NCBI GenBank assembly: GCA_030692515.1
Contig: JAUXZS010000016.1
Coordinates: 132,313-196,312 of the forward strand
Source of the DNA: Bacteroidota bacterium
GTDB taxonomy: Bacteria; Bacteroidota; Bacteroidia; B-17B0; Aurantibacillaceae
DNA length: 64,000 nucleotides
Direction of reading: 5' to 3'
In this document: piece by piece, positions 9,151 through 28,573 of the stretch
How positions within the stretch are numbered: position 1 is the stretch's first letter
How the letters are laid out: the number at the start of each line of letters is the position of its first letter
Notes under the pieces: model-generated
Seen by the model: only the letters and a program-made list of their open reading frames with translations
Databases searched by the model: none
What the model was told of the DNA's origin: nothing
Made by a program: the position numbers and the translations under genes

Positions 9151-12100
9151 CTATTGAAAATTAATTCTCAAACTAAATCCACCAGTTGCATTTGCAGTTG
9201 GAAAAGATGCAGATGTTTGTGGTTTAGTTCTAATCCAATCATAAAACAAACGTAAATTAATATTTTGAGTTAGTTGATAATCAGCAGAAGAACGAAGCGT
9301 TAAGATATCTGTACCACCTGTTGGGATACTAATTCCATCAGAAACCCTTCTGATTATAGAGAGATTTCTTCTATAACTAACATCCAGCTTAACTAATAAA
9401 TTACTCTCTAATACTTTACCTTGAATTTGAATGCCTTTAATTTTTAATTTAGGATACATATATCCTAATCCAACAATATACTCTTGTCCTTTTGTTTCTA
9501 TAACTTGTGGGCCAGTAATATTTAAGCTTGTTGATTTATCACGTTTAGTTTCAACATTTGCACTCCATCCTTGTTTTACAAATTGAAAATCAAACTTAAC
9601 TAAAGGCGAAAAGGCTTCGGTAATTGTAATTGCATTAATATTGTAATACGGCACAAAATTTGGACTAAACGCTGTAGTACCAGTTGCAATTGAAACAGGG
9701 GCTCTAGCTGTTTGCGCATCTCCTGTAAATAAAATATTATTAGAAAATCCATTTATGTTATAGGTACTTCTATATCCATGACGGACTGTAATACTTCTAA
9801 ATGTTTTCTTGAAAACAGAAAGTTTTCCTAAACCATCCCAATTAATTGTAAAGTTCGGCAAAGGTGTTTTAGGAAAAATATTTTGTGTGCTGTAATTTTT
9901 TACATTTCTTCCGGTATAAGTTCTATAAAAAGCACCTAACAACACGTCTTGCTGACTATTACCATATCCATCAACATAACTCTCTGTGTTTCCCTGAATA
10001 TTTGTGTAAGTATATGAACCAATAGAGCCAGTTGGGTTTTCTGTTGAGAAAGCGTTAGCAGCTCCTAATTCGTTAGCTACATTTCTGCGCTCTAATAAAA
10101 ACTCATCAAATAAAGCTGAGTTTACACCAGTACCTTTATCGGTAAATGAACGGAAAAAAGTAAATGTAGAAATATTAAAATTACCGGTTTCATTTTTACT
10201 CACGTCAAAAACAAATCCATGGTCGCCAGGTTTTGCATTTGCTGGATCATAAATCATATACTGGCTAACATTGCTTGACTTAGTATAATTTCCATTTAAT
10301 TCTATTTTTAAACTACCGTGTGGTTCAATACTCGATCGATAAGTATAGGTTCTGTTTTTCGTTTCTATATATGGTGTTGTTTGTAAAGTGTTTCGAGCAA
10401 TCCAACCATTCTTCGCACTGTTTTGTCTAATAGCATCATCATGTAAACCGGTTGTAAATAAAAATCCTGGAGCTTGATTTGCAGAAAAATCCATTCCGCC
10501 ATATTGCGAACTTGGTTTAAAGTTTGGTAAGCCTTGGCCACCTTGTTCTTGAAATGAAATAGAAAGATTTTTAATCATCATGATTCCTCTTGCCAAAAAT
10601 TCTCCAATATCTTTAAAATTACTGTCTTTCTTTTTTGTGGTGTCTTTTGCCGATGCACTATTGGTGCTAACGGCTCCTTTTCCTGGTCGTGAATCGGTAG
10701 ATTTGTTTTGTTGATTTGTATTTAGTCTTTTAAAATACGGTATCTTATTATATAATTGTATTAGATTAAAATTACCAGTAATGTTATGCGAATTAGTATT
10801 TTGAATGGTATTACCAATACTATCGGTTGCAGCAAATGGTCTGCGCAACCAAGTATATGTTCCACCATACCTGTATGTAACAGTTGTAAAATCTAAAATT
10901 GGTATTTTATTAAGTGGTAGGTTAACATTCAAATTCATTTGCTGACGATAGGTAGTGTTCTCTCCAAATTTTCCGACAGACTGTTTTGTAGTTGTATCTG
11001 TTTTTCCATTCATAAAAGTGTTGACTATATCATCACGATGTGCTTTGTCTTCTTTAAACACCTCACCATACCTTTCTAAAACACGACCTTCATTATTAGC
11101 AGTATAATCAAATTTTATTGATTTTGTAAAATCCCAACGTAAATTATAAGCTCTATTAATTAAGAAATTTTTATTTACGAGTGTTGGATTTTCAAACACG
11201 TTTGAGCCCGCATAAAAACTTGTGATATCTCTATTTTTTAGGGCTGCATAAGTTCTATTTAAATCTACTGAAGTACCAAAACTATTTGGCATTAATTGTA
11301 AATTAAAATCTTTAATTAAAGCAAACCATTTATTTTGAAATATTTTTACTTTAGTAAATGGTTTAAGTGTAAAAGGACGGGTGATATTATAAGCATATTG
11401 AATATTACCACGGTATTGCCTGTTAATATTATACTCAACATTTACATTTCGTTTAAACAATTCAGTATACGCATAGGTAACTGCAAAATTACTAACGTCC
11501 CAGGGCATTGGTTTAGCTCCCTTCCGCTTAAAGCCATCTATCCTAACATTAGTTAAGTTAAATCCTTTTCGTTCATTAAAATCTAATACTTGATCCTTAA
11601 TATCTTTTTTGGTGGCAGCAGGTATATCAGAATTTTTATTAAAATCGTCCATTTTAATATCCGGATCAATTGGATTAAATAAAGGCGTCACAATTGATTG
11701 CCCATAATTATAAAAAACAGGTAAAGTAACTTTCCATTTATTTGGGAAAAATTTGCCTGCATTAGTTGAACTGCTAAAATCCCAATTTAAATTTGTCTCT
11801 CGGCTACGCTCATTTATTTTTTGTTCAACCCCTCCCCAATATGGAGTTTTGTATGTTCCTGCTAAGGATACAGTTCCTAAGTCGGCCAGTTTTGCTTGCA
11901 CTTGCCCAGTTGTTGCCCAACCTCCTTTATTAATAAACTCAGTCAATCGCAATTCGTTTACCCAAACCTCAGCACAATGAGCCAAATTATCAGTCCCCTT
12001 ATTATTTCTAATACCAACCATTACACTTTTTATGGTTCCTAAATTTGGATTACCAACTACAGAAATTTTATAGCCGCCGAAATCTTTAACATAGGGTTGA

Positions 12101-15100
12101 CTTAATTGATTTAAATTACTAAAGTAACCAAGCTTTGTATTTCTTTCATTCTTTACAATAGTAATATCACTAAACTTAAAATTAATTTCGTTATCGGCAG
12201 GCCAAACAATATATCGGTCATCAATACTATTAGGATCATAAACACCTTTTGGTGTTAATTTTAATGGCACTTCGTATTCATAAAAGTTATTATTATAATC
12301 TGTCCCAACTCTAAAAAATAATGTAAGATCGCCATCATTTAAAGGAATATCATTTAGTTTTTCGGCATGCACATTCATTTTAATGTTGTTAAACATACGC
12401 GTATCTAAATCAACATTTTTAAATACTGCTCTGCTATCTCCATCTTTTAAATTACAAACGCGCATTTGCAAAGCCTGTTCGTTTTGTAAAACTAAATTGG
12501 TTGTTTGTACATTTTGTTGTTGCGAAATATCTGGTGGCAAAACATAATTTACGGGAACTTTTGTTCCGTTTTCTTGCAAGCTAACAGCAGACACGTCAAA
12601 AGAAGTTGAGTTATCATCGTTAGCTATATATTCACCAGTTTGTTTAAGGTCGTAAGCATAACGTCTCCAGTCTGCGCGCACTAATTCGAAACGCGCTAAA
12701 CGCACAAGCACAGGTCTTTCAAAACCCTTCATGTAAACACGCATAAAACGAATAGAGTTAAAGCCTTCAATACCACCAACAACAGATTCGAATTGTGAGA
12801 TTGGAATTTTAAATTGATACCATTTTACATTTTTATTAATACCACCAAAATCGGCAGTACCATTAAATGCGTCCACAATATAATTAGTTCCGACTGCTGC
12901 TTGATTAATATCATTTGGTGAAATTTTTATATGGTACTGATAATAATTTTCTGTTTCACTCAAAGTATTATCTCTGTTTACGTCTTCAATATTTGGAATG
13001 GTACTTGCCGCTGTAGAATAACCGGCGCTGTTTAAACTTTTGTATTGTGCTTCTGTTGGCGAATTGCCTTCGGGATTATTATATTTAGAATATCTTTTTA
13101 ATGTATTTTCTTGTGCAGCGTCATAATCATCTCCTCTAAAAAAATGATATTTATCGCTTGAAGGGTCGTTTAAAAAAGCGTCTTTAACAGATTGATTAAA
13201 TGAACCCGATTGCATATCGGCTATTGCACTTCTAAAACGATAACGCTCATAAGAATCACTTAAACCATCGTAACCAACATCTTGAAATTCGCGGTCGTTA
13301 TTATCTTGCGAAAAGGCGTTAACCGTTGGTGGAATTAAAGGAATGTTTGACACGTTGTTAGAATCTATTGGCAAACTCTTTGAAAAATCTGAAACACCCG
13401 GTATTCCATTTTCATATACCATTCGTCCATCTTTTACAATATCTTCAGATATGTTACCCAAGTTAATAAATAAATCACCTACCGGTAATTTTGTTTTATC
13501 AAAATCAGGATGCGTTTTTACATCGTAATCTTCATTAAATGGATCCATCATCCAAAACTGAATGTATTCAATATTTGCAGCTTGAAAATCATTTGTTTCT
13601 AACCTACGCATAATACCACCCCAACGATTTTGCGGATTTTTTAAAGTTCCATCTTGATTTATACCTCCTGAAAATTGAGTTGGATTTACATCGTAGTTAT
13701 ATGGGCCACGTTCTGTAGGATAAAAACCTAAATCTAAAACTGGTAATACAACCTGCTGACCGTTAGGAGGTGTTTTACCGGGAAATAATTCTGTTTCAAA
13801 AACCTGACGCCACATGTTATTTGAAAAAAGTTGATTGTTATAATAGCTTGGAGTAGTTCCGCTTTGCGAACGCGTAAACATTGGGTCGATATTATACCAA
13901 TTAAAACGCGCGCGGTTTAAACCTGTTGCTGTTGTGTTTGTAGTAACAGCTTCTGGAAACAAACTTGGAATACCTTGTGGAATACTTGCCAAATACCAAC
14001 CCTGTGGATTTCTAACATCTATTAGGGAAATTGAACCTTCAAAATCATCAATATAAGAGTTACCACTTTTACCAATTGCTTTTGCATTACCGGGAAATAA
14101 TTTTGCAAACTCTCCTCGTGTAGAAATAGTACTCATTTCCTTGGTGCTATACAATGGTAACTTGTCAAGCAAACGAGTAATGAAAGGCGCATCGGTTTTA
14201 TAATTAAAATCTAAACCGGCCACAATATTACTTACAGGCTCATCACCAATGCTTACTTTTTGTGTTATTGGTCGTTCATTAAAGCGCAAGATGGTACTAC
14301 CTAAAGTTAAATTTCTTCCTGCTTTATAATCTAAACGCGTACCCCATAAACTTTTTTGTTGCACATTAAAAAGCGAATTACTTTCTAAAGAAACTTTTAC
14401 AGTTGCACCTGAGTTTAAAATTCCTTCGTTAATAATTTTTACTCTACCTAATGTATAATCAACTGTGTAATCAGTATTTTCTGTTAATGCAATTCCATTG
14501 GCGGTAACCACAACAGCGCCTTGAGGAATGTTTAATGCGTTTAATGCAATCTCAGAGCCAGAAGCAGAGCGATAAGTTCCTTTTATTTTATAACGATTTT
14601 TGTTTTGAATAAATGATGCGCCTGTTTTTGTTGAATCGTAAAGCTCAGTAAAAATATATTTATTAGCGCCCGGAAAATCATTAAACTGATCGAATTCTTT
14701 TGCTAAACTTCTTCCAAAAGGTTCAACGGTTGGAAAGTAAACTCTACCGTTATTTGGTAAAATGGTATAATCCTTAATAAAATCAAACACACCATCAGAA
14801 ACTTTATCACCATTAACACTTAAATTATCGCATTTCAAAACACGAATTAATTGTATTCCATTTATTTTCCCAAATGGTATGTAGGGAACATCAACACCGG
14901 TTTCAATATTATTATAATAAACATCTAATTTAAAATCTTGCGCATTTAAATTATACGCGCCCAAAGCATAAACGTTTTTCATCATTAAATCCCATAAAGG
15001 ATGCTTAACACTAACGTTATTACTTTTTAATAATTTACAAACTAAGAGTGCATTATTATCTGGTACTTGATCGCTAAACTCACCAACCTGATAGGTCTTG

Positions 15101-16641
15101 CCACCAAATGTATATTGATAAGAAACTGCTAAAGATTGCTCGTTACTTAATTGTTGATTTAATGAAATAAAACCGGTACGTGGATTAAAAAAATATTCCG
15201 TTTGATTTAATCTTCTGGCATTTTGAATTACGTTATAATCACGTGAAGCATCCATATAACTGCCCCCAGTGTTGTTAGTGTTTGTGGCAATAACGGTAGT
15301 TGGTAATTTTAATGAAACAGAACTTAACACCCTGTCTTTTAATAATCCATCAACCGTATTGGTCATGATTGAATATAAATTATTAGCGTCATTACTTGGA
15401 TTAACGTCAAGTCCATCTGTAATTGCATAGTTGGAAGGTATAATAACTGAACCCGAAGAGTATGCTGACAATCCTTTAAAAACGTGCGCCGAATCCTCTC
15501 CTAAATCTTCGAAAGCTACTACATTTCTAGTTTGCTCGGCTGTACCATTAATATTTAAAACGTAAACCTCAACTTTTGTTATTACAATGGGAGTATTAAT
15601 AACGGGCAAACTTCCCATCCAAGCATCATAATTATCTCTAAAATAATGCCCTAAAAAAAAGTGTTTGTTTTGCTCGTAATTATCGCCATTAATTTGAAAA
15701 TTTTGTGTTTGCGCACCACCCTGAACCGTTACCTCTTGCTTTTTACCACGCTGTTGAGAAAAAACTGTAGTTGCAGTTAGCTTACCAAATTGTAATTGTG
15801 TTTTTAATCCAAACAAAGTTTGACTACCCGAAATTAATGTACTATTTAATGGGAGCGTAACATTTCCTGCTTCTATTTTTTTAATAATTTCGTCTTCGTA
15901 GCCGGTATAATCTAACTTAACTTGATTTTCCCAATCAAAAGAGGCTTCAGTATTATAGTTAGTGGTTACTTTTAATTTATCTCCAATTTTACCAATAAGG
16001 TTTAATTGAATACGCATGTTAAAATCGAAGTTGGTAATTTTTTGTTGTCTTTGAGGAATGGCCGGGTTGAAATTCTTATTTCTATTTAAACCAAAAATTA
16101 ATTCTGCTGTACCGGTTGGTTTAATATCAACAGTATTGCCGCCAAAAATACGATCAAATAATTCGCTATTAACTTGAAGTTTGGGGATCATCCCTTTACG
16201 TGGCTTCTCATTTAAATCATCTGCAGCAACTCTCGAGCGCCAATAATCACGCATGGATTTTTTAAATTGATAATCCTGATATTCCTTCATGCTCATGTAG
16301 GTCTCAGGTCTATAATCTAAATCGCCCATTTTTTGTTTTACATCATAAGTACCTGTTTTTGGATTATACTCAACCTCTGTTTTTATATTTTCAGGATTCT
16401 CTAAATAAAGTTTTGATTTAGGATCAAACATTGGTGGTTTACCATTGTTATCATTAAAATTATAATTTAATTCGGGCGGTTCTGTTATTGGAGAATCAGG
16501 AAGTAGTATTTTTTTTGACGGAAGTTGGTTGTAAAAATCTGAATTCGCATTTTTATCGGGACTAGATTTTGTAACTACTGCTAAAAGACAAGCTGTTGCA
16601 CTGGTAACTACTACAAAATTTATAAGTCCGTTTGCTCTCAC
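9151..16641 (-). CDS. sprA: Cell-surface protein SprA (type IX secretion outer-membrane translocon / gliding motility)
   Basis: 2496 aa; SprA-like segments such as RMRIQLNLIGKIGDKLKVTTNYNTEASFDWENQVKLDYTGYEDEIIKKIEAGNVTLPL and SGNSYIDDFEGSISLIDVRNPQGWYLAS; size and ruvA/gcvH neighbourhood agree. Confidence 0.93.
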   Translation of the reverse strand: MRANGLINFVVVTSATACLLAVVTKSSPDKNANSDFYNQLPSKKILLPDSPITEPPELNYNFNDNNGKPPMFDPKSKLYLENPENIKTEVEYNPKTGTYDVKQKMGDLDYRPETYMSMKEYQDYQFKKSMRDYWRSRVAADDLNEKPRKGMIPKLQVNSELFDRIFGGNTVDIKPTGTAELIFGLNRNKNFNPAIPQRQQKITNFDFNMRIQLNLIGKIGDKLKVTTNYNTEASFDWENQVKLDYTGYEDEIIKKIEAGNVTLPLNSTLISGSQTLFGLKTQLQFGKLTATTVFSQQRGKKQEVTVQGGAQTQNFQINGDNYEQNKHFFLGHYFRDNYDAWMGSLPVINTPIVITKVEVYVLNINGTAEQTRNVVAFEDLGEDSAHVFKGLSAYSSGSVIIPSNYAITDGLDVNPSNDANNLYSIMTNTVDGLLKDRVLSSVSLKLPTTVIATNTNNTGGSYMDASRDYNVIQNARRLNQTEYFFNPRTGFISLNQQLSNEQSLAVSYQYTFGGKTYQVGEFSDQVPDNNALLVCKLLKSNNVSVKHPLWDLMMKNVYALGAYNLNAQDFKLDVYYNNIETGVDVPYIPFGKINGIQLIRVLKCDNLSVNGDKVSDGVFDFIKDYTILPNNGRVYFPTVEPFGRSLAKEFDQFNDFPGANKYIFTELYDSTKTGASFIQNKNRYKIKGTYRSASGSEIALNALNIPQGAVVVTANGIALTENTDYTVDYTLGRVKIINEGILNSGATVKVSLESNSLFNVQQKSLWGTRLDYKAGRNLTLGSTILRFNERPITQKVSIGDEPVSNIVAGLDFNYKTDAPFITRLLDKLPLYSTKEMSTISTRGEFAKLFPGNAKAIGKSGNSYIDDFEGSISLIDVRNPQGWYLASIPQGIPSLFPEAVTTNTTATGLNRARFNWYNIDPMFTRSQSGTTPSYYNNQLFSNNMWRQVFETELFPGKTPPNGQQVVLPVLDLGFYPTERGPYNYDVNPTQFSGGINQDGTLKNPQNRWGGIMRRLETNDFQAANIEYIQFWMMDPFNEDYDVKTHPDFDKTKLPVGDLFINLGNISEDIVKDGRMVYENGIPGVSDFSKSLPIDSNNVSNIPLIPPTVNAFSQDNNDREFQDVGYDGLSDSYERYRFRSAIADMQSGSFNQSVKDAFLNDPSSDKYHFFRGDDYDAAQENTLKRYSKYNNPEGNSPTEAQYKSLNSAGYSTAASTIPNIEDVNRDNTLSETENYYQYHIKISPNDINQAAVGTNYIVDAFNGTADFGGINKNVKWYQFKIPISQFESVVGGIEGFNSIRFMRVYMKGFERPVLVRLARFELVRADWRRYAYDLKQTGEYIANDDNSTSFDVSAVSLQENGTKVPVNYVLPPDISQQQNVQTTNLVLQNEQALQMRVCNLKDGDSRAVFKNVDLDTRMFNNIKMNVHAEKLNDIPLNDGDLTLFFRVGTDYNNNFYEYEVPLKLTPKGVYDPNSIDDRYIVWPADNEINFKFSDITIVKNERNTKLGYFSNLNQLSQPYVKDFGGYKISVVGNPNLGTIKSVMVGIRNNKGTDNLAHCAEVWVNELRLTEFINKGGWATTGQVQAKLADLGTVSLAGTYKTPYWGGVEQKINERSRETNLNWDFSSSTNAGKFFPNKWKVTLPVFYNYGQSIVTPLFNPIDPDIKMDDFNKNSDIPAATKKDIKDQVLDFNERKGFNLTNVRIDGFKRKGAKPMPWDVSNFAVTYAYTELFKRNVNVEYNINRQYRGNIQYAYNITRPFTLKPFTKVKIFQNKWFALIKDFNLQLMPNSFGTSVDLNRTYAALKNRDITSFYAGSNVFENPTLVNKNFLINRAYNLRWDFTKSIKFDYTANNEGRVLERYGEVFKEDKAHRDDIVNTFMNGKTDTTTKQSVGKFGENTTYRQQMNLNVNLPLNKIPILDFTTVTYRYGGTYTWLRRPFAATDSIGNTIQNTNSHNITGNFNLIQLYNKIPYFKRLNTNQQNKSTDSRPGKGAVSTNSASAKDTTKKKDSNFKDIGEFLARGIMMIKNLSISFQEQGGQGLPNFKPSSQYGGMDFSANQAPGFLFTTGLHDDAIRQNSAKNGWIARNTLQTTPYIETKNRTYTYRSSIEPHGSLKIELNGNYTKSSNVSQYMIYDPANAKPGDHGFVFDVSKNETGNFNISTFTFFRSFTDKGTGVNSALFDEFLLERRNVANELGAANAFSTENPTGSIGSYTYTNIQGNTESYVDGYGNSQQDVLLGAFYRTYTGRNVKNYSTQNIFPKTPLPNFTINWDGLGKLSVFKKTFRSITVRHGYRSTYNINGFSNNILFTGDAQTARAPVSIATGTTAFSPNFVPYYNINAITITEAFSPLVKFDFQFVKQGWSANVETKRDKSTSLNITGPQVIETKGQEYIVGLGYMYPKLKIKGIQIQGKVLESNLLVKLDVSYRRNLSIIRRVSDGISIPTGGTDILTLRSSADYQLTQNINLRLFYDWIRTKPQTSASFPTANATGGFSLRINFQ

Positions 16642-19917: not shown

Positions 19918-22900
19918 TTATGCTTTTAAAAACTCTAGATAAAAACAAGTTCCAATTCCAAGTTCAGATTCAAACCAAACCTTTCCATCAAAGCCTTGCA
20001 TAATATTTTTAACCATAGCTAAACCAATGCCAGAACCAGTTGTTTTTGTTGTAAAATTAGGAGTAAATAATTTTTCTTCCATTCCAATATCAATCCCGCA
20101 ACCGTTATCTTTTATCGAAATAACAATAAATTCGTGTTTCTCTTGACAGTCAATTTCTATTTTCGGATTTACAGTTTCATCTAAGGCCTGAACAGCGTTC
20201 TTTAAAACATTATTAAAAACTCGTAAAGCCTGGTCTTTATCCCCCAAAACAAATAATTCCTTTGAAAGAATATTATTTGTGATAGAAATGTTTTTATGAT
20301 TCTCGAATATTAAAACAGCAGTATTAATAACCTCGCAAAGGTTTATGCTTTGCAGATTTGTTTTCGGAAATTTAGCGAAGCTGCTAAACTCATTCGCAAT
20401 ATTCGCCAATGAATCTATTTGCTCAATTATTCCGGCACTTGCTTTTTCAAACTTTTCTTTAAAATCATCGGGATTATTTTTCATTAAATGCTGTAAATAT
20501 TGCAAGTTCAACTTCATTGGCGTGAGTGGATTTTTAATTTCATGAGCTACTTGTTTTGCCATTTCTCTCCAAGCACTTTCGCGTTCACTTTGCGCTAAAA
20601 GATTGGCGCTTACCTCCAATTTAACTAGCATTTGATTGTACTCGCTAACCAATTTTCCAATCTCGTCATTGCTTTTCCATTTTATTTTTTCGTTTTGTTT
20701 ACCAAAAGTAATATTTCCAATTTGCTGTTTAATTAATTGCAATGGTCTAGTAATGTAACCCGCCAATATCAATCCTGATAAAATACTAATTACAAATAAT
20801 ATTACATAAACGTTAATAAAGGCGCTAATAATGTCCGATAATTCATTCACTAAATCTGCTTGCTTGGCATAATATGGTAAATTAACAAAACCAATTAACT
20901 GCTTTGTATTAGTAAACAAAGGCGTGTACAATGATAAATAATTTAGTTCTCCAGCCTTTTCGTTTACGCTCGTTGCAGAAGTTTTATTTCCTTTTAAATC
21001 TGAATATGCTTGAGGGTTCATTATTGTAGCGGCTAAACCTAAATCATACAAGCGTGGCTCACTTGTATTAAATAAATTTCCTTCTTTACTAAACAAACTT
21101 ATATCGGTATTAAATAAATGCGCGTATTCTTTTAATTTTAAATTAACTAATTCCTTTTGAGAAACATCAAAAACTTCGGTAGGTGTAAATTGAGTGGCTA
21201 ATTCGTTTATAATAGTTTGAGTTTTCTCTTGCAGTTGTTTTATATTATCTGCTTCAAATTGATTTGTAACTAATTTTGCAGAAGTATAGCCCACAGCAGA
21301 AATAGCTAATAGTAACAATAAAATTATTATAGCTTGAATGCGGCGTGTAAAAGAGGATGATTTAAATCTGTCGGTAAAAAGCGCGCCATAAATAAGATAA
21401 CTACAATAACTTACAAACGAAAAAAATAAAAATAAATATGAATTATAGGTGAAGTAATAGTTCCAGCTTTTGGTTTTTTGACTTATAATAATTTGCGTTT
21501 CCTCATCGGGATTAAAAAAATAATGAACATAATCTGGATTTGTTTTTGAAAGCGCTACCGAATCACTAATAAAATAAGGATAATTAAAATCTCCGTAACG
21601 ACTTGAAATTTGACCAGAGCGATACACAGCATGATTAAACTTTATTAGCTTCTCGGGTTTTTTTTGTGATTCATCTACCAATAAATCAGGGAAACTTCCT
21701 AATTCTTCGAATTGTTTAGGTTCTAAACGAATATATAAATTTTTTGAACCTAAAGATATTTTGCCAATATAACGTGAGTTTTTTTTGTGACGAGCAATAA
21801 AAAATAAATTTTGAGAAATTGAATCGGTTTCATTATACTTAATTTGATCCTCAAAAAAACCTTCGTTTAAAAGAATAGGGTCTTTTGGCACCAGCAAAGG
21901 TTTGCAATCTTTATCAAATAGGGAAAATTCTAGATTGTACCGATTAAAGTACCCACCAAAAAAATTCTGTTTTAATAGCTGCCCAATTTCATTTTGGCTA
22001 CTTGGTAAAAATTCTATTAGAATCTTTAATTTTTCATCGTTAGCAATTTTATCTGGTAAATTTGCAAACTCGCTTTCTAAAATAGCATCTTTTCTTTCAC
22101 TTAAACTATATGATAAAAGATTGAGGTCTAGTTTTTGATTTTTATTGATGTAAAAATTAAAAAATGAAGCGGTTATTATAGACATAATAAGTATTTGTAA
22201 ACCTAAGCCTAAAGAGTTTTTAGAATAATTAAACTTATTTAAAATAAATAATGATAAAGCAAAAACAACTAACCAATAACTTTCAAACAATTTAGTATAC
22301 CCAAAGCCTATATCAATAAAAAAACAAATACAACTTATCAATAATACAAAGGCCACACTATTTTTTACAAAATTGCCATTAAAAAATCCTATTAGCTTTT
22401 GGACTAAAACAAAAATCGCTAAACAATAACAAGTCAACGCAAACAGCGCGATATAAGCTGGATATTTAATGCTAAATATGCTCAAAAAATCAAAACTAAG
22501 AGTTGAGTCTGTTACTAAACTTATTAAAGCATTATTGAATTGAACAACAACAAATCCAACAACAATTGATAAGAACAGAACGTATAAATAATTTCCAGTT
22601 TTTTTATTGGTTATTTGGATTTTTAAAAAAAACACCGTGCCTAAAAACAATAAAATAATTGCATTTATTAATATATCTCCTAAATAAGAATTAATTGATG
22701 AAAAAGCATTTCCAAATAACTGAACATCATATAACACGCTCCTATAAAAAAATGCCGGCCATTTTAACCAAATCATTAGCGCTCTAAAAAAAATTATTAA
22801 AACAAGCAAAATAATAGTTTTATAATTACTTTGGCTTAGCTTAATAAGGAGTAAAATTGAAACTAAAGAGAAAATAAATCCAATTAAAAAAATAACAAAA

Positions 22901-23499
22901 CAAACATTACTAATACTGCTCGAATGATAGAATTGATCATTCCCCGAAAGAAAAAATAATGGTTCTTTATCTAAATAAATTCCATTTTCTGGTAATCCTG
23001 TGGTTGCAATATTTATTTCTTTAGGAATCTTTGTCCAATCACTAAAACCATTTTGTAAATAATTATTTTGCAAATCATAATTTGGTTTTAATAAACAGAG
23101 TGTTAAGCCCAAATCAGCTGCAATTTGTTTTTTTATATATAAATAATATCCTTGTTTTAACTTCGCTAATCCAAAATCCTCATCAAATAATTTTCTATCA
23201 TATGACAGCGGAATTTGCGCATTGTTCCAATAAACAAGACTGTCATTTTTAAATTTATAAATACCTATATTTTCTTCTTTAAATAGTTCTACTAATTGTT
23301 GCTTATTAATATTTTGCTTTTCACTTAATAACAAATTGAGAGCGTTTTGCGCCAACAATTGTTTAGCCTCTATTTTTCTGGAGGCGTTTTCCGAAATTTG
23401 ATGAATAGAAAAGGTGAAATGCCTGTCAAGTAAAATTGCTCCGGTCATCAAAACTAAGCTGAAAACCAGTAGGATATAGTGTATTTTCTTTTTTTGCAT
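19918..23499 (-). CDS. Large multi-TM sensor histidine kinase (HAMP + HisKA + HATPase, NtrY-like)
   Basis: TM helices followed by HAMP-like region; H-box SAWREMAKQVAHEIKNPLTPMKLNLQYL; N-box VFNNVLKNAVQAL; G boxes DNGCGI, FTTKTTGSGIGLAMVKNI. Confidence 0.9.
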   Translation of the reverse strand: MQKKKIHYILLVFSLVLMTGAILLDRHFTFSIHQISENASRKIEAKQLLAQNALNLLLSEKQNINKQQLVELFKEENIGIYKFKNDSLVYWNNAQIPLSYDRKLFDEDFGLAKLKQGYYLYIKKQIAADLGLTLCLLKPNYDLQNNYLQNGFSDWTKIPKEINIATTGLPENGIYLDKEPLFFLSGNDQFYHSSSISNVCFVIFLIGFIFSLVSILLLIKLSQSNYKTIILLVLIIFFRALMIWLKWPAFFYRSVLYDVQLFGNAFSSINSYLGDILINAIILLFLGTVFFLKIQITNKKTGNYLYVLFLSIVVGFVVVQFNNALISLVTDSTLSFDFLSIFSIKYPAYIALFALTCYCLAIFVLVQKLIGFFNGNFVKNSVAFVLLISCICFFIDIGFGYTKLFESYWLVVFALSLFILNKFNYSKNSLGLGLQILIMSIITASFFNFYINKNQKLDLNLLSYSLSERKDAILESEFANLPDKIANDEKLKILIEFLPSSQNEIGQLLKQNFFGGYFNRYNLEFSLFDKDCKPLLVPKDPILLNEGFFEDQIKYNETDSISQNLFFIARHKKNSRYIGKISLGSKNLYIRLEPKQFEELGSFPDLLVDESQKKPEKLIKFNHAVYRSGQISSRYGDFNYPYFISDSVALSKTNPDYVHYFFNPDEETQIIISQKTKSWNYYFTYNSYLFLFFSFVSYCSYLIYGALFTDRFKSSSFTRRIQAIIILLLLLAISAVGYTSAKLVTNQFEADNIKQLQEKTQTIINELATQFTPTEVFDVSQKELVNLKLKEYAHLFNTDISLFSKEGNLFNTSEPRLYDLGLAATIMNPQAYSDLKGNKTSATSVNEKAGELNYLSLYTPLFTNTKQLIGFVNLPYYAKQADLVNELSDIISAFINVYVILFVISILSGLILAGYITRPLQLIKQQIGNITFGKQNEKIKWKSNDEIGKLVSEYNQMLVKLEVSANLLAQSERESAWREMAKQVAHEIKNPLTPMKLNLQYLQHLMKNNPDDFKEKFEKASAGIIEQIDSLANIANEFSSFAKFPKTNLQSINLCEVINTAVLIFENHKNISITNNILSKELFVLGDKDQALRVFNNVLKNAVQALDETVNPKIEIDCQEKHEFIVISIKDNGCGIDIGMEEKLFTPNFTTKTTGSGIGLAMVKNIMQGFDGKVWFESELGIGTCFYLEFLKA

Positions 23500-23553
23500 T
23501 TATCATAGCAAAATAGGAAAAAATCTTCTATTCAAGGCGCTATTTTCCTTTTT

Positions 23554-23580
23554 TTTGCGTTTTAATAAGGTTTATATTTG
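23554..23580 (+). promoter_or_regulatory. Candidate promoter of TMTC-like gene (TTTTTTG..TATATTTG)
   Basis: TTTG (23554-23557) and TATATTTG (23573-23580) upstream of ATG 23605; overlaps the TTG start proposed by the ORF track. Confidence 0.35.
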
Positions 23581-23604
23581 TACTTTGCAGATATTTTTAA
23601 TTTT

Positions 23605-26106
23605 ATGGCACAACCAACAAAAACACTAAAACAACCTACTTTTCCAGAGTTAAGTAACACTTTTAAGTACTTTACTTTTTTAACGCATAAAATGGCGATG
23701 GTCATTATTGGAGTTGTAGGTTTTACCTTTTATATAACTTCTATTAATGGGGAATATGCTTTAGATGATGGTATTATCATTCACCAAAACGATCACGTAA
23801 TTAAAGGGATTAGAGGTATTCAAGGTATTTTAACAAAAGATGCCTATGAAAGTTTTTACCGACGTATGTGTGCTACTGATCAATTAGCTGGGGGTCGTTA
23901 CCGTCCTCTTTCGGTAATAAGTTTCGCCATAGAACAGGAATTTATGGGTGCCTACCGAACAGGCCTCTACTTAAAAGTAGAAGACTCAAACAAGAACGGC
24001 ATATTAGATAAAGACCTAGTGAGTTATACTTCGCCTTGCGGCAGACCAGAAACCAATTATGAGTATAACGATTTTGTGGATTTAAATGGTGATGGTATGG
24101 CTCAACAAAATGAGTGCTACAATTGCTGGGATACAAATAAAAATTTTAAAAACGATTCTGACGAAGATTTAAATATTGACGGTGTTTTTAATGAAGTTGA
24201 TTGTCAAGTATACAAAGCTAATGTTCGCCACTTTAACAATATATGGACATTTGCACTAGGTTGTGTTTTTCTTTATTTAGTTTTTTCACGTTATTTTTTC
24301 CGAACAAATCAAGACCTTGCTTTTTTAGCTGCCTTGCTTTTTACTATGCATCCAATACATTCAGAAGCAATTGCTAATGTAAAAAGTCGCGATGAGATTT
24401 TTTCTTTAATATTTATTTCTCTCACCTTTCTCTATTCCTTCAAATACATGGAAACCAAGAAACCGCTTGATCTTTTTTGGGCTTCCATCATGTTTTTACT
24501 CGCCTTGCTTTCAAAAGAATATGGTATTATGTTATTAATATTGGTGCCTTTAGCGGTTTACACTTTTACTGATAATGATTTTGACATTAAAACCTTCAGT
24601 AAAACAAAAGAATTTAAGCAAACAATTTTTATTGGGTTAACCTTTGTTGTGTGTGCCTATTTTATGCTTTATCTAAAGCGCTCTTTCGACATGCATGCTT
24701 TGCCAGGTGCAAAACCAATTAAATCTTTCTGGGTGTTTCCTTTTATTTTTGTTGGGGTTAGTATGTTTTTACTTGGCGCCAATAAAAAGAATAATTTTCA
24801 AAAATTAATGAGTTGGTTTTATTTTGTGATGTTGTTTTATTTAGCAATGCGTTTAATGGCAGTGAAATTAAAACCAGGTGTGCCAGATACTGAAATTTTA
24901 AATAATCCATACTTATTAGCAACAGGCGAAGAACGCTTTTGTACAAAAGCTTATGTTTTATTAAAATACTTCTGGCTACAATGTTTTCCACACCCTCTAT
25001 CATCAGATTATTCATACAACACAATTGAGTATCGTCATTTTACTAGTTGGGATTTTATTGCGTCCATAATACTTCATATTGGAATTGTAGTTGGCGCAAT
25101 TAAGTATACGCTAAAAAAACACCTTCTTGGTTTTGCCTTAATGACTTATATAGTTTTTGCATTGTTAATTGGTAACGTATTAATGGATATTGGCGCAACC
25201 ATGGGTGAACGTTTGATATTCCATTCAAACATAGGTTTTTGTATTCTTGCGGCGTGGGTCATTTTAAAAGGCTTTGATAAATTATCTGCAATCGCATTAA
25301 ATATAAGAAGAGCCGTACTTATTACAATTGTTTTAGTTGTTGGCTTTTTATTTGGTTGTAAAACCTGGGAGCGTAATTACGATTGGAAAAACGACGTTAC
25401 TTTATTTTTAAAAGACGTAAACACAATGCCAAACTCCGTTTTAGTTTTAGGGAATGCAGGAGCACGTTGGGTTGATTTAGCTGATACAAAAGAAATTACA
25501 GGCATACAGGTTGTTGGGCAAGATTCAACTCGTTATAATGATTATAATGGTACGCTTCATATAACCGATGAGGAAGTGAAAGAAGGCGGTTATGCTTCCA
25601 AAAGGGATGCCGCTTTATATAAAGGAATTGGTTTTCTGAAGCATGCTATCGAACTTCACCCTCGCTATGTTAATGGTTATTTAAATTTAGGATTGGCTTA
25701 TTTTAAATTAAGAAAAGATTTTGAAGCATTATATTATTGGAAAAATGCAGAACGTCTTTACCCAAACAATCCATACCTAAGAAATTATTATATTGTATAT
25801 TATAATGATCTTAAAAACCGTGGGGCAACTTATTTTAATCGTGGGCGAATGGATTCTGCAGCAGTTGCCTACAGAAAATGTACATTACTCGATCCATACA
25901 ATCCAGAAGGTTGGTATAATTTAGGAGGAGCTTACTTCAATAGTCAAAGGTATGTTAAGGCTAAAGAAAGTTGGGAGCGTGCTCTACAATTAAACCCGAA
26001 TTATGCTGAAGTTAAACGTGTGTTGCCAATGATTACACCTCAAATGTGTGGGCAAGTACCAATGACCAGCGTGGTTCCTCAATCGCAGCCTGTTAATAAA
26101 AATTAA
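23605..26106 (+). CDS. TMTC-like GT-C fold membrane protein with C-terminal TPR repeats and an EF-hand-like insert
   Basis: Multi-TM; YALDDGIIIHQND, YRPLSVISFAIEQ and MHPIHSEAIANVKSRDEIFS resemble TMTC/DUF1736 proteins; TPRs in the C-terminus (VNGYLNLGLAYFKLRKDFEALYYWKNAERLYPNN; EGWYNLGGAYFNSQRYVKAKESWERALQLNPNYAE). Confidence 0.8.
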   Translation: MAQPTKTLKQPTFPELSNTFKYFTFLTHKMAMVIIGVVGFTFYITSINGEYALDDGIIIHQNDHVIKGIRGIQGILTKDAYESFYRRMCATDQLAGGRYRPLSVISFAIEQEFMGAYRTGLYLKVEDSNKNGILDKDLVSYTSPCGRPETNYEYNDFVDLNGDGMAQQNECYNCWDTNKNFKNDSDEDLNIDGVFNEVDCQVYKANVRHFNNIWTFALGCVFLYLVFSRYFFRTNQDLAFLAALLFTMHPIHSEAIANVKSRDEIFSLIFISLTFLYSFKYMETKKPLDLFWASIMFLLALLSKEYGIMLLILVPLAVYTFTDNDFDIKTFSKTKEFKQTIFIGLTFVVCAYFMLYLKRSFDMHALPGAKPIKSFWVFPFIFVGVSMFLLGANKKNNFQKLMSWFYFVMLFYLAMRLMAVKLKPGVPDTEILNNPYLLATGEERFCTKAYVLLKYFWLQCFPHPLSSDYSYNTIEYRHFTSWDFIASIILHIGIVVGAIKYTLKKHLLGFALMTYIVFALLIGNVLMDIGATMGERLIFHSNIGFCILAAWVILKGFDKLSAIALNIRRAVLITIVLVVGFLFGCKTWERNYDWKNDVTLFLKDVNTMPNSVLVLGNAGARWVDLADTKEITGIQVVGQDSTRYNDYNGTLHITDEEVKEGGYASKRDAALYKGIGFLKHAIELHPRYVNGYLNLGLAYFKLRKDFEALYYWKNAERLYPNNPYLRNYYIVYYNDLKNRGATYFNRGRMDSAAVAYRKCTLLDPYNPEGWYNLGGAYFNSQRYVKAKESWERALQLNPNYAEVKRVLPMITPQMCGQVPMTSVVPQSQPVNKN

Positions 26107-26501
26107 TGCGGAGGTGGGCAATAATTAGCTTATTGTTTCTAAATTATTCTGTCAAATCACAAACAGTTATTAATTTAGATACTTTAAATTTGCCTACTCA
26201 AACAGAAAATATTTATAATAAAGCATTGTTTGGTGATAGTTTAGTGAGCAGCTTTTGCATTGTTATTAAAAACGAAGTTAAACTACACAAGCATGAACAT
26301 CACAGCGAACATGTTTTTGTTATAGATGGAGAAGGACAAATGAGTTTAGAAAATAAACTATTTACTATTAAAAAAGGGGATTTAATTTTTATCCCCAAAA
26401 ATAGTATTCATTCAGTAAAAACTACAAGCAAACAACCTTTAAAAGTAATGAGCATTCAGGCTCCGATTTTTGATGGAAAAGATAGAATTATTATAAAATG
26501 A
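26106..26501 (+). CDS. Secreted cupin-domain protein
   Basis: N-terminal signal-like segment; HKHEHHSEHVFVIDGEGQMSLENKLFTIKKGDLIFIPKNSIHSVKT is a cupin_2 pattern. TAATG overlap with upstream gene. Confidence 0.82.
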   Translation: MRRWAIISLLFLNYSVKSQTVINLDTLNLPTQTENIYNKALFGDSLVSSFCIVIKNEVKLHKHEHHSEHVFVIDGEGQMSLENKLFTIKKGDLIFIPKNSIHSVKTTSKQPLKVMSIQAPIFDGKDRIIIK

Positions 26502-28573
26502 AAATGAAAAAAAATTTACTACTAGCATCCCTTTTGATTTTAACATCATCTTTAGTTTCACAAATACTATTTAGTAACAGTTTCGGAAACTTAAACTTAC
26601 AATCCTATACTACCACTTCAAGCGCCGTGGAATACACTACCGCCCCAACAATTTTTAGCATTATTAACGATGGTTTTAAGAACAACATTGGTTCAACAAC
26701 CAATCCCAACAAACCTTTTAATGTTCCAGCGCTTAAAAGTGAAGGTTGGGCAGTTGTATATAACGCCTTAGAGAATGATACATTTTTAGTGAGTACAAGT
26801 TGGCTAGACACTTTAGTTACAACTAACAGATGGATTATTACTCCTCCAATATCCAACATTGCGGCAAATACCGTTTTAACTTGGTTAGCAAAAAGTCCAG
26901 ATGCAAATTTTCCAGAAAGTTACGAGGTATATGGAACTAATAAAACAGGAACATTAGTTGCTCAAGATTTTGCAATTGGTGATTTATTATTTTCAACTAC
27001 ATCAGAAAATAATTCTTGGAAAAGACGTTCTGTAAATCTTAGTAGTTTTGCGGGACAAACTTTACGTTTTGCTTTCAGAAATAATTCCAATAACAAATAT
27101 CAAATTTGGATTGATGATATTGAAGTAATTACATTAACAAATAATATCGATGGTGAATTAACTTCCATTGAAACACCAAAATATATTCTTACCAATTCAA
27201 CACAAACAATTAGTACAACTATTACTAACTTAAGCGCTACAGTAATAAATTCGGTTACGTTAAATTACCAAGTTGGTAATTCAATTATTCAAACCGAAGC
27301 AATTACGCTTTCAAGTCCGTTAGCTTATAAACAATCCGTAAGCACCACTTTTGGATTACCTTATACAATTACAACTGCAGGAAATTATAAATTAAAAACT
27401 TGGTTAAGCAAGGTAAATTCTACTTTAGATCAAAATCAATTAAACGATACTTCATTCATATACATTACGGCGCAAAGCACTGCGCCTAGAAAATCGGTTT
27501 TAGTTGAGCAATTTGTAAATGCTTTTGATGGAGAATGTCCGGATGCGCAGGAAAAAATGTTAACGCGTCAAAACGATTCAGTAATTGTTGTAAATATTCA
27601 TGATTTAGATTCCTTAAAAGAAGCTAACTCAATAGGACTATTATCCGCTTACAAAAAAAATTCTGCAACAGCGATGTTCGATAGAACTTATTACTCAAAT
27701 CCAGGCGCCATTGCGGCATCTAGACCTTACTACGATAGCTTAATTTACAAACAATTACGTAAAATATCTCCAGCAAGTATAAGTATCATTAACAAAAGTT
27801 ATAACTCAACAACAAAACAATTATCTTTTACTGTAAAGGCAGATTTTATTGGAGATGTAAAAGGAGATTTGCGTTTAAATGCTTACTTAACTGAAAATAA
27901 CGTTCATGGCTCGTCTTATGACGTTTCTTTAAATGGCTATAACCAGTTAAATAATTTTTATAATGTACCATGGTCACCTTATTATCAAATGGGTTATTAT
28001 TCTTCTACCTATTCAACTTATGTTTTAAATGCTTTTCAATTTAAACATCAAAACACATTGGTGCATTCATTTGATGGCTCTTTTGGAAATGCCGGCGTAA
28101 TTCCTACCACCGGAGGAACACAAGGTCAATCTTATCAAAAAACATTTACCTTAACCGTGCCAACCCCGACAAATGCAATTAATAAATACAATTCGGATAA
28201 TTTATATATCGTAGGTTTTTTAGCAGAGTATAACACAAACCTTTACAATAGAAATATATTAAATGTAGTAAAAGAAAAAATTACCTCGAATAGTGAAACA
28301 GTTGGTGTAAAAGAAATTGAAGGGAAGACTCAACTGTCTGTTTATCCCAACCCATCTAGCGGGAAAATTTATCTAACTAGTCCAAATGAAATAAACACAT
28401 ACGAAATTAAAGTGGTTGATTTAATGGGAAGAATAGTATTAATTGAAAACCTTATTCAAGTGGGGAATCCTAGCGTGCTGGATGTTTCAAGTCTAACTAA
28501 CGGCATTTATTTTCTCCAAATTAGCTCAGTACAGGGCAGTTTTGTTGAAAAAATAGTGATTCAAAAAAACTAG
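26498..28573 (+). CDS. T9SS type A sorting-domain protein with choice-of-anchor J-like and Omp28-like regions
   Basis: Signal peptide; WIITPPISNIAANTVLTWLAKSPDANFPESYEVY (choice-of-anchor J-like); C-terminal LSVYPNPSSGKIYLTSP...GIYFLQISSVQGSFVEKIVIQKN (T9SS CTD). Confidence 0.85.
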   Translation: MKMKKNLLLASLLILTSSLVSQILFSNSFGNLNLQSYTTTSSAVEYTTAPTIFSIINDGFKNNIGSTTNPNKPFNVPALKSEGWAVVYNALENDTFLVSTSWLDTLVTTNRWIITPPISNIAANTVLTWLAKSPDANFPESYEVYGTNKTGTLVAQDFAIGDLLFSTTSENNSWKRRSVNLSSFAGQTLRFAFRNNSNNKYQIWIDDIEVITLTNNIDGELTSIETPKYILTNSTQTISTTITNLSATVINSVTLNYQVGNSIIQTEAITLSSPLAYKQSVSTTFGLPYTITTAGNYKLKTWLSKVNSTLDQNQLNDTSFIYITAQSTAPRKSVLVEQFVNAFDGECPDAQEKMLTRQNDSVIVVNIHDLDSLKEANSIGLLSAYKKNSATAMFDRTYYSNPGAIAASRPYYDSLIYKQLRKISPASISIINKSYNSTTKQLSFTVKADFIGDVKGDLRLNAYLTENNVHGSSYDVSLNGYNQLNNFYNVPWSPYYQMGYYSSTYSTYVLNAFQFKHQNTLVHSFDGSFGNAGVIPTTGGTQGQSYQKTFTLTVPTPTNAINKYNSDNLYIVGFLAEYNTNLYNRNILNVVKEKITSNSETVGVKEIEGKTQLSVYPNPSSGKIYLTSPNEINTYEIKVVDLMGRIVLIENLIQVGNPSVLDVSSLTNGIYFLQISSVQGSFVEKIVIQKN

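Follow-up and report, generated by a model that had tools for sequence, protein, structure and literature searches.

A predicted Ca-binding-type module in the catalytic-side loop EL1 of a TMTC-like GT-C glycosyltransferase from Bacteroidota

RESULTS

The GT-C gene and its neighborhood

The window analyzed here (the whole stretch of 64,000 nucleotides from a Bacteroidota genome) contains on its plus strand a frame of 842 codons (23578-26103, open from TTG 23578, with the stop codon at 26104-26106) for a predicted TMTC-like GT-C glycosyltransferase with TPRs at its C-terminus. Translation probably starts at ATG 23605, which is favored since the open frames of the homologues L012 and L015 begin near the same ATG; the gene then spans 23605..26106 and encodes 833 aa. 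It is flanked by a divergent gene for a sensor histidine kinase of 1193 aa (19918..23499, minus strand), a conserved neighbor in most close loci, and on the other side by a gene for a secreted-type cupin (MannoseP_isomer/Cupin_2; 26106..26501, plus strand), which overlaps the GT-C stop codon, and a gene for a T9SS type A sorted protein with a choice-of-anchor J and an Omp28-like stretch (26498..28573, plus strand). Together, the kinase, the GT-C protein, the mannose-phosphate-isomerase-like cupin and the T9SS-sorted protein make up a conserved neighborhood (19918-28573), upstream of which SprA, the type 9 secretion translocon (2496 aa), is encoded at 9151-16641 on the minus strand. The kinase also lies beside the GT-C gene in six of the seven distant homologue loci that were fetched, whether the GT-C protein there carries the core module described below, a different insert or none. 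Since kinase and GT-C gene are paired with or without the insert, the change in the EL1 loop took place within a locus that looks orthologous.

The host protein resembles TMTC enzymes

In Pfam searches the protein matched PMT_2 above the cut-off (2e-6) and several TPR families (TPR_2, 5e-19), the TPR repeats at 25627..26025 appearing as helical hairpins in the AlphaFold model. TMTC_DUF1736 was matched at 4e-4 with 20.7 bits, below the curated cut-off of 27; this cut-off is passed by some close homologues (G081, G146 and G176), and 17 of 22 aligned homologues, the window protein included, match DUF1736 at E<0.01. A GT-C membrane domain, for which the model shows many helices, followed by C-terminal TPRs is a feature of the TMTC family. 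Moreover, counterparts of the motifs DD (M1), SHKSYRP (M2), KE (M4) and ERxxY (M7), as defined for TMTCs (PMC7801869), are present and nearly invariant in the aligned homologues. The DD motif lies in EL1 (D63-D64, 23764..23769) and reads ND in L023, where D63 is replaced by Asn. The M2 counterpart YRPLSVISFAIEQEFMG (23899..23949), which closes the conserved part of EL1, matches partially, with AGGR in place of SHKS, and the M7 counterpart in EL5 (E544-R545, 25207..25212; E invariant, R nearly so) is likewise a partial match, ERLIF versus ERxxY, while KE in EL3 (K313-E314, 24514..24519) is invariant. Because of the PMT_2 and TPR matches, the sub-threshold DUF1736 match and these four motif counterparts, the host protein is, judged by its sequence, a TMTC-like GT-C transferase. 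We found no characterized bacterial TMTC-like enzyme in the literature. Searching the PDB by sequence with nothing but the GT-C region gave no credible match, and the best Foldseek matches of the full model were essentially TPR proteins and therefore uninformative on the GT-C fold.

Two further observations concern the GT-C genes themselves. At a second variable site (approximately 24583-24612, residues 336-345) several homologues (L013, L015, L016, L024, L025 and L027) have roughly 50-100 extra, largely hydrophobic residues, which could be additional membrane helices. In L029 (5001-7687) the GT-C gene is broken into two frames (715 and 216 aa) by a frameshift, either in the gene itself or introduced by the assembly.

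Loops and cysteines of the EL1 insert

Aligning homologues that have the insert with those that lack it places the insert at residues 125-218 (23950..24231, approximately 95 aa), between the YRP segment and the following TM helix (TM2), NNIWTFALGCVFLYLVF (24235-24285, in frame). Since the DD and YRP motifs lie in EL1 too, the insert would by homology lie on the catalytic, periplasmic side, and the net-basic N-terminus ahead of TM1 and the acidic loop behind it agree weakly with a periplasmic EL1.

A sequence-only reading of this stretch had described four Ca-type loops and four cysteines in the insert; all quoted motifs are in frame at their positions, and the cysteines are residues 154, 180, 183 and 209. 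The loops are unequal: three are canonical and one is imperfect, more than shuffling predicts, and the last two alone are conserved in all insert-bearing relatives. These two form a core module at 24124..24204, C183-W followed by two directly contiguous 12-residue loops and C209, with the pattern C-W-[DxNxNxxxDxxE]-[DxNxDGxxNxxD]-C, which is present in 27/27 insert-bearing homologues. In core loop 1, DTNKNFKNDSDE (24130..24165), D1 and E12 are invariant and N3, N5 and D9 vary only among D/N/Q/E, while in core loop 2, DLNIDGVFNEVD (24166..24201), D1, N3, D5, N9 and D12 are invariant in the 27 sequences. Core loop 1 had not been ranked as canonical, but DTNKNFKNDSDE is nearly as good as the adjoining loop, because all five side-chain ligand positions (D1, N3, N5, D9, E12) are present and only Gly6 is missing, Phe standing at position 6 in the window protein. 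The remaining pair occurs only in 13 four-loop sequences and consists of outer loop A, DSNKNGILDKDL (23983..24018), which is imperfect, with D1, N3, N5, G6 and D9 conserved and no conserved acid at position 12, and of the canonical outer loop B, DLNGDGMAQQNE (24079..24114), with D1, N3 and E12 invariant where the loop is present. The full Dx[DN]x[DN]G motif with a later acidic ligand is found in core loop 2 and outer loop B.

The acid/amide pattern at positions 1-3-5-9-12 occurs in three loops (24079-24114, 24130-24165 and 24166-24201) and nowhere else in the whole protein. When the insert's own residues were shuffled 100,000 times, 2e-5 of the trials yielded at least three such loops and 3e-5 at least three Dx[DN]x[DN]G motifs; no trial (0/100,000) placed two 12-residue loops directly next to each other.

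A possible partner of C154 (24037-24039) is C98 in the conserved part of EL1 (23869..23871), a suggestion drawn from co-occurrence: both residues are present in 11 sequences and both are missing in 16. This covariation is perfect but counts as one event, because the 11 sequences form one clade. The proposed disulfides C183-C209 and C98-C154 leave the partner of C180 unexplained. A second TMTC-like gene of the same genome (L104, 4690-6955, G000:C18), which has no adjacent kinase, carries a four-loop insert lacking C154 and C98.

Family and structure comparisons

The window protein has no match to the EF-hand and dockerin families of Pfam, TSP_3 is absent among its Pfam matches listed with E up to 10, and the HMM check against EF_hand, Dockerin_1 and thrombospondin type 3 proposed by the sequence-only reading thus leaves the protein unmatched. 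The insert alone likewise retrieved no credible family from Pfam and NCBIfam. A single weak kinase match of the insert (phmmer versus PDB, E 0.08) was not credible. A profile of the core had dockerin loops as its best matches in the PDB (best E 0.002), and the sole Foldseek match of the isolated insert was a dockerin as well, at a non-significant E of 9.4. The EF-hand helix-loop-helix arrangement is absent, as the contiguous core loops leave no room for helices between them. AlphaFold2 models, which contain no ions and were built from shallow alignments, had, with 22 sequences, a mean pLDDT of 72 for the protein and values mostly below 50 over the insert; the core reached 68-76 when the insert was modeled alone. 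At this confidence the models yield no reliable loop geometry, either for or against Ca coordination.

Distribution, history and conservation

The alignment combined 23 GTDB loci, the paralogue from the same genome and class-wide homologues. In the resulting set of 45 proteins used for the tree, the EL1 site is a short loop in 10 and holds other inserts, 26-56 aa over the stretch compared and lacking this Ca motif, in 8; 14 have the core only, and 13, including the window protein, have the core together with the two outer loops. Many homologues are thus short or differently filled at this site, at odds with a non-Ca-binding loop common to all of them, the outcome that would have spoken against the sequence-only reading. 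Within a 198-genome sample of the class, 11 genomes, which all belong to two family-level groups, have the core module in GT-C frames. L043, L048, L049, L059 and L060 have unrelated inserts at the same site, charged, helix-like and about 55 residues long, and because such inserts sit there in several homologues, the EL1 site seems to be an insertion hot spot. When the insert columns were left out of the tree, the core required two changes, and a single clade gave p-AU 0.278. Two independent gains of the core, in the f1-type and f6-type clades, were considered and set aside: the tree wants two changes, but one clade is still compatible with the data.

Both framing Cys and the Trp of the core are invariant in the 27 insert-bearing proteins, as are 7 of the 10 predicted ligand positions, the other three varying only among D/N/Q/E. 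Ligand positions are preferentially conserved: entropy is lower at ligand columns than at other loop columns (Mann-Whitney P 8e-5), and the invariance of ligand positions has a hypergeometric P of 0.01, both P values being indicative since the sequences are related. To this extent the sequence-only reading of a calcium-loop insert in a TMTC-like protein is supported: EL1 contains a module of Ca-binding type, dockerin/Dx[DN]xDG-like in kind. Pairwise omega was 0.02-0.06 for the insert; across the remaining GT-C domain these pairs gave 0.04-0.12. In two pairs dS was saturated for the insert and GT-C regions. Where both could be estimated, purifying selection on the insert is therefore no weaker than on the remaining GT-C domain.

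These data bear on whether the Asp/Asn-rich stretch might be nothing but a flexible acidic spacer that binds no metal. Low AlphaFold confidence over the insert and the tolerance of the EL1 site for differing inserts would fit such a spacer, but conservation at ligand spacing, an invariant Trp and Cys pair, low omega and the exact recurrence of a 27-residue pattern in unrelated proteins would not be expected from it, and we regard it as quite improbable.

The same module in other proteins

The 27-residue core pattern recurs in collagen-like secreted proteins with 1-7 copies per protein (core-profile search), in DUF6340 lipoproteins of one genus, whose frames are 384-406 aa long compared with approximately 350 aa in many other listed DUF6340 genes, and in viral-contig proteins, one of them a fiber-like collagen protein. 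All these other hosts look extracytoplasmic. The module, CWDxNxNG..D..EDxNxDGxx[ND]xxDC, was found in L073-L087 and L089 from genomes of the class and in L094-L096 from viral contigs; L096 has an additional copy whose two loops are separated by a long insertion. One tandem copy in a secreted relative passes the Pfam Dockerin_1 cut-off (24.6 versus 22.9 bits). A tblastn search of phage records with a consensus-like module sequence gave no match. Across 297 genomes sampled from the phylum, own genome aside, there were just two weak partial matches, and the module therefore looks concentrated in part of the class. No name for the 27-residue module was found in the families or literature searched, nor were literal module strings found in the literature. 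Because of insertion polymorphism at one site and recurrence in unrelated proteins, the insert is, as far as its sequence indicates, a mobile Dx[DN]xDG module set into a catalytic-side loop.

DISCUSSION

Like TMTC1-4, protein O-mannosyltransferases of the GT-C/PMT clan with DUF1736, the window protein combines a GT-C membrane domain with subsequent TPRs, has counterparts of DD, YRP, KE and ER, and partially matches DUF1736; it differs in being bacterial, in its approximately 95-aa Ca-type EL1 insert and in a DUF1736 score below the curated cut-off. The tie to cadherin O-mannosylation suggested by the sequence-only reading found no support, the analogy being to metazoan TMTC function alone.

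Thrombospondin type 3 repeats are serial short Asp-rich loops with Cys and little regular secondary structure. The module shares with them short Asp-rich loops in series with Cys, but has no Pfam match and shows a 12+12 spacing with framing Cys. With dockerin type I it shares the DLNxDGxxNxxD loop, but it lacks a helix after each loop, has no known cohesin link and is a 27-residue unit, in contrast to the two longer loop-helix repeats of dockerins. Dx[DN]xDG loops in general, like those described here, have acid or amide side chains at positions 1, 3 and 5, followed further on by an acidic position, and likewise occur as insertions in unrelated extracytoplasmic proteins (PMC3123361); the present module differs by its two contiguous, Cys-closed loops with a leading Trp and by a host that is a polytopic membrane transferase. 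What appears to be new is thus the host context, while the Dx[DN]xDG class is known. EmbB, a bacterial GT-C arabinosyltransferase, binds a Ca2+ ion tightly, and this ion probably has a structural role (PMC7341804). Its site, formed with lipid between TM2, JM1 and a strand, is not an inserted loop module (PMC7341804), and in the present protein Ca2+ is predicted.

We consider the insert most likely a periplasmic Ca-binding-type (Dx[DN]xDG) module in EL1 that serves as a constitutive structural cap, and put the probability of this reading at about 0.62. In the core, C183 and C209 would close a pair of directly adjoining EF-type loops of 12 residues each, predicted to hold two Ca2+ ions constitutively. 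The result would be a compact, disulfide-locked cap that covers EL1 on its outer face and sits between TM2 and the YRP dome of the donor pocket. A second, looser loop pair in the clade of the window protein would enlarge the cap to approximately 95 aa, and the enlarged cap may be pinned to EL1 via C98-C154. The likeliest role of the cap would be the Ca-driven folding and rigidifying of EL1, a loop that in TMTCs carries the catalytic DD and YRP motifs and faces the donor side (PMC7801869), and the shaping of the acceptor-side vestibule. We infer Ca binding from the predicted ligands; since side chains at these positions are often Asn, affinity can be modest. Further points against this reading are the low AlphaFold confidence over the insert, the non-significant Foldseek match, the missing Pfam match, the Phe in place of Gly6 in core loop 1 and the unexplained pairing of C180. 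The structural role is preferred because the unit is reused in surface proteins, because signal-transmitting helices are lacking and framing Cys are present, and because there are precedents for structural Ca2+: Dx[DN]xDG loops suit many structural contexts, and in a Thermococcus subtilisin a Ca-binding insertion is required for folding (PMC3123361).

The occurrence of the module in unrelated secreted proteins points to a generic stabilizing unit and makes a cap more likely than a Ca switch. EF-type loops in a catalytic-side loop, together with a large sensor kinase as a conserved neighbor, might suggest a Ca2+ sensor that toggles the enzyme with periplasmic Ca2+. This is the weakest reading and very improbable, as the core loops have no intervening helices to pass on a change, the framing Cys would lock the module, and the kinase is also found beside insert-less genes.

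Alternatively, the insert could provide a Ca-ordered EL1 surface that, with the TPRs, recognizes an acceptor or partner, perhaps the neighboring T9SS-sorted protein. Such a role is conceivable because the EL1 face forms the acceptor site in homologues, where EL1, EL2 and EL4 make up this site (PMC7801869); moreover, the kind of loop at this one site varies by clade (none, helical-looking, Ca core or four loops), and in most of the 23 loci the cupin and T9SS genes stay next to the gene with the insert. However, core-only and four-loop forms have the same neighbors, so that loop size does not track a partner, the cupin/T9SS pair is missing at the three core-only f6-type loci that were fetched, and the module also occurs in collagen-like proteins without transferase function. 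We therefore judge recognition unlikely, and more doubtful still is the specific version in which a Ca-ordered EL1 lid would select or position a protein acceptor and loop swaps between clades (none, helical, Ca core, four-loop) would re-target the enzyme. The regulatory or substrate-binding arrangement proposed by the sequence-only reading is likewise not supported, given the reuse of the module in unrelated secreted proteins, and nothing found here links it to an acceptor.

In terms of novelty, we found no literature in which a Ca insert is linked to TMTC or ArnT-like enzymes, and no report that any catalytic-side loop of a GT-C enzyme carries an inserted module of Ca-binding type. The structural cap favored here would be such a module in the catalytic-side loop of a GT-C transferase, in environmental Bacteroidota. 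The finding also draws attention to a compact module without annotation (CWDxNxNG..D..EDxNxDGxxNxxDC), which turns up repeatedly among surface proteins of Bacteroidota, and since natural versions with and without the insert exist at a conserved locus, its role is directly testable.
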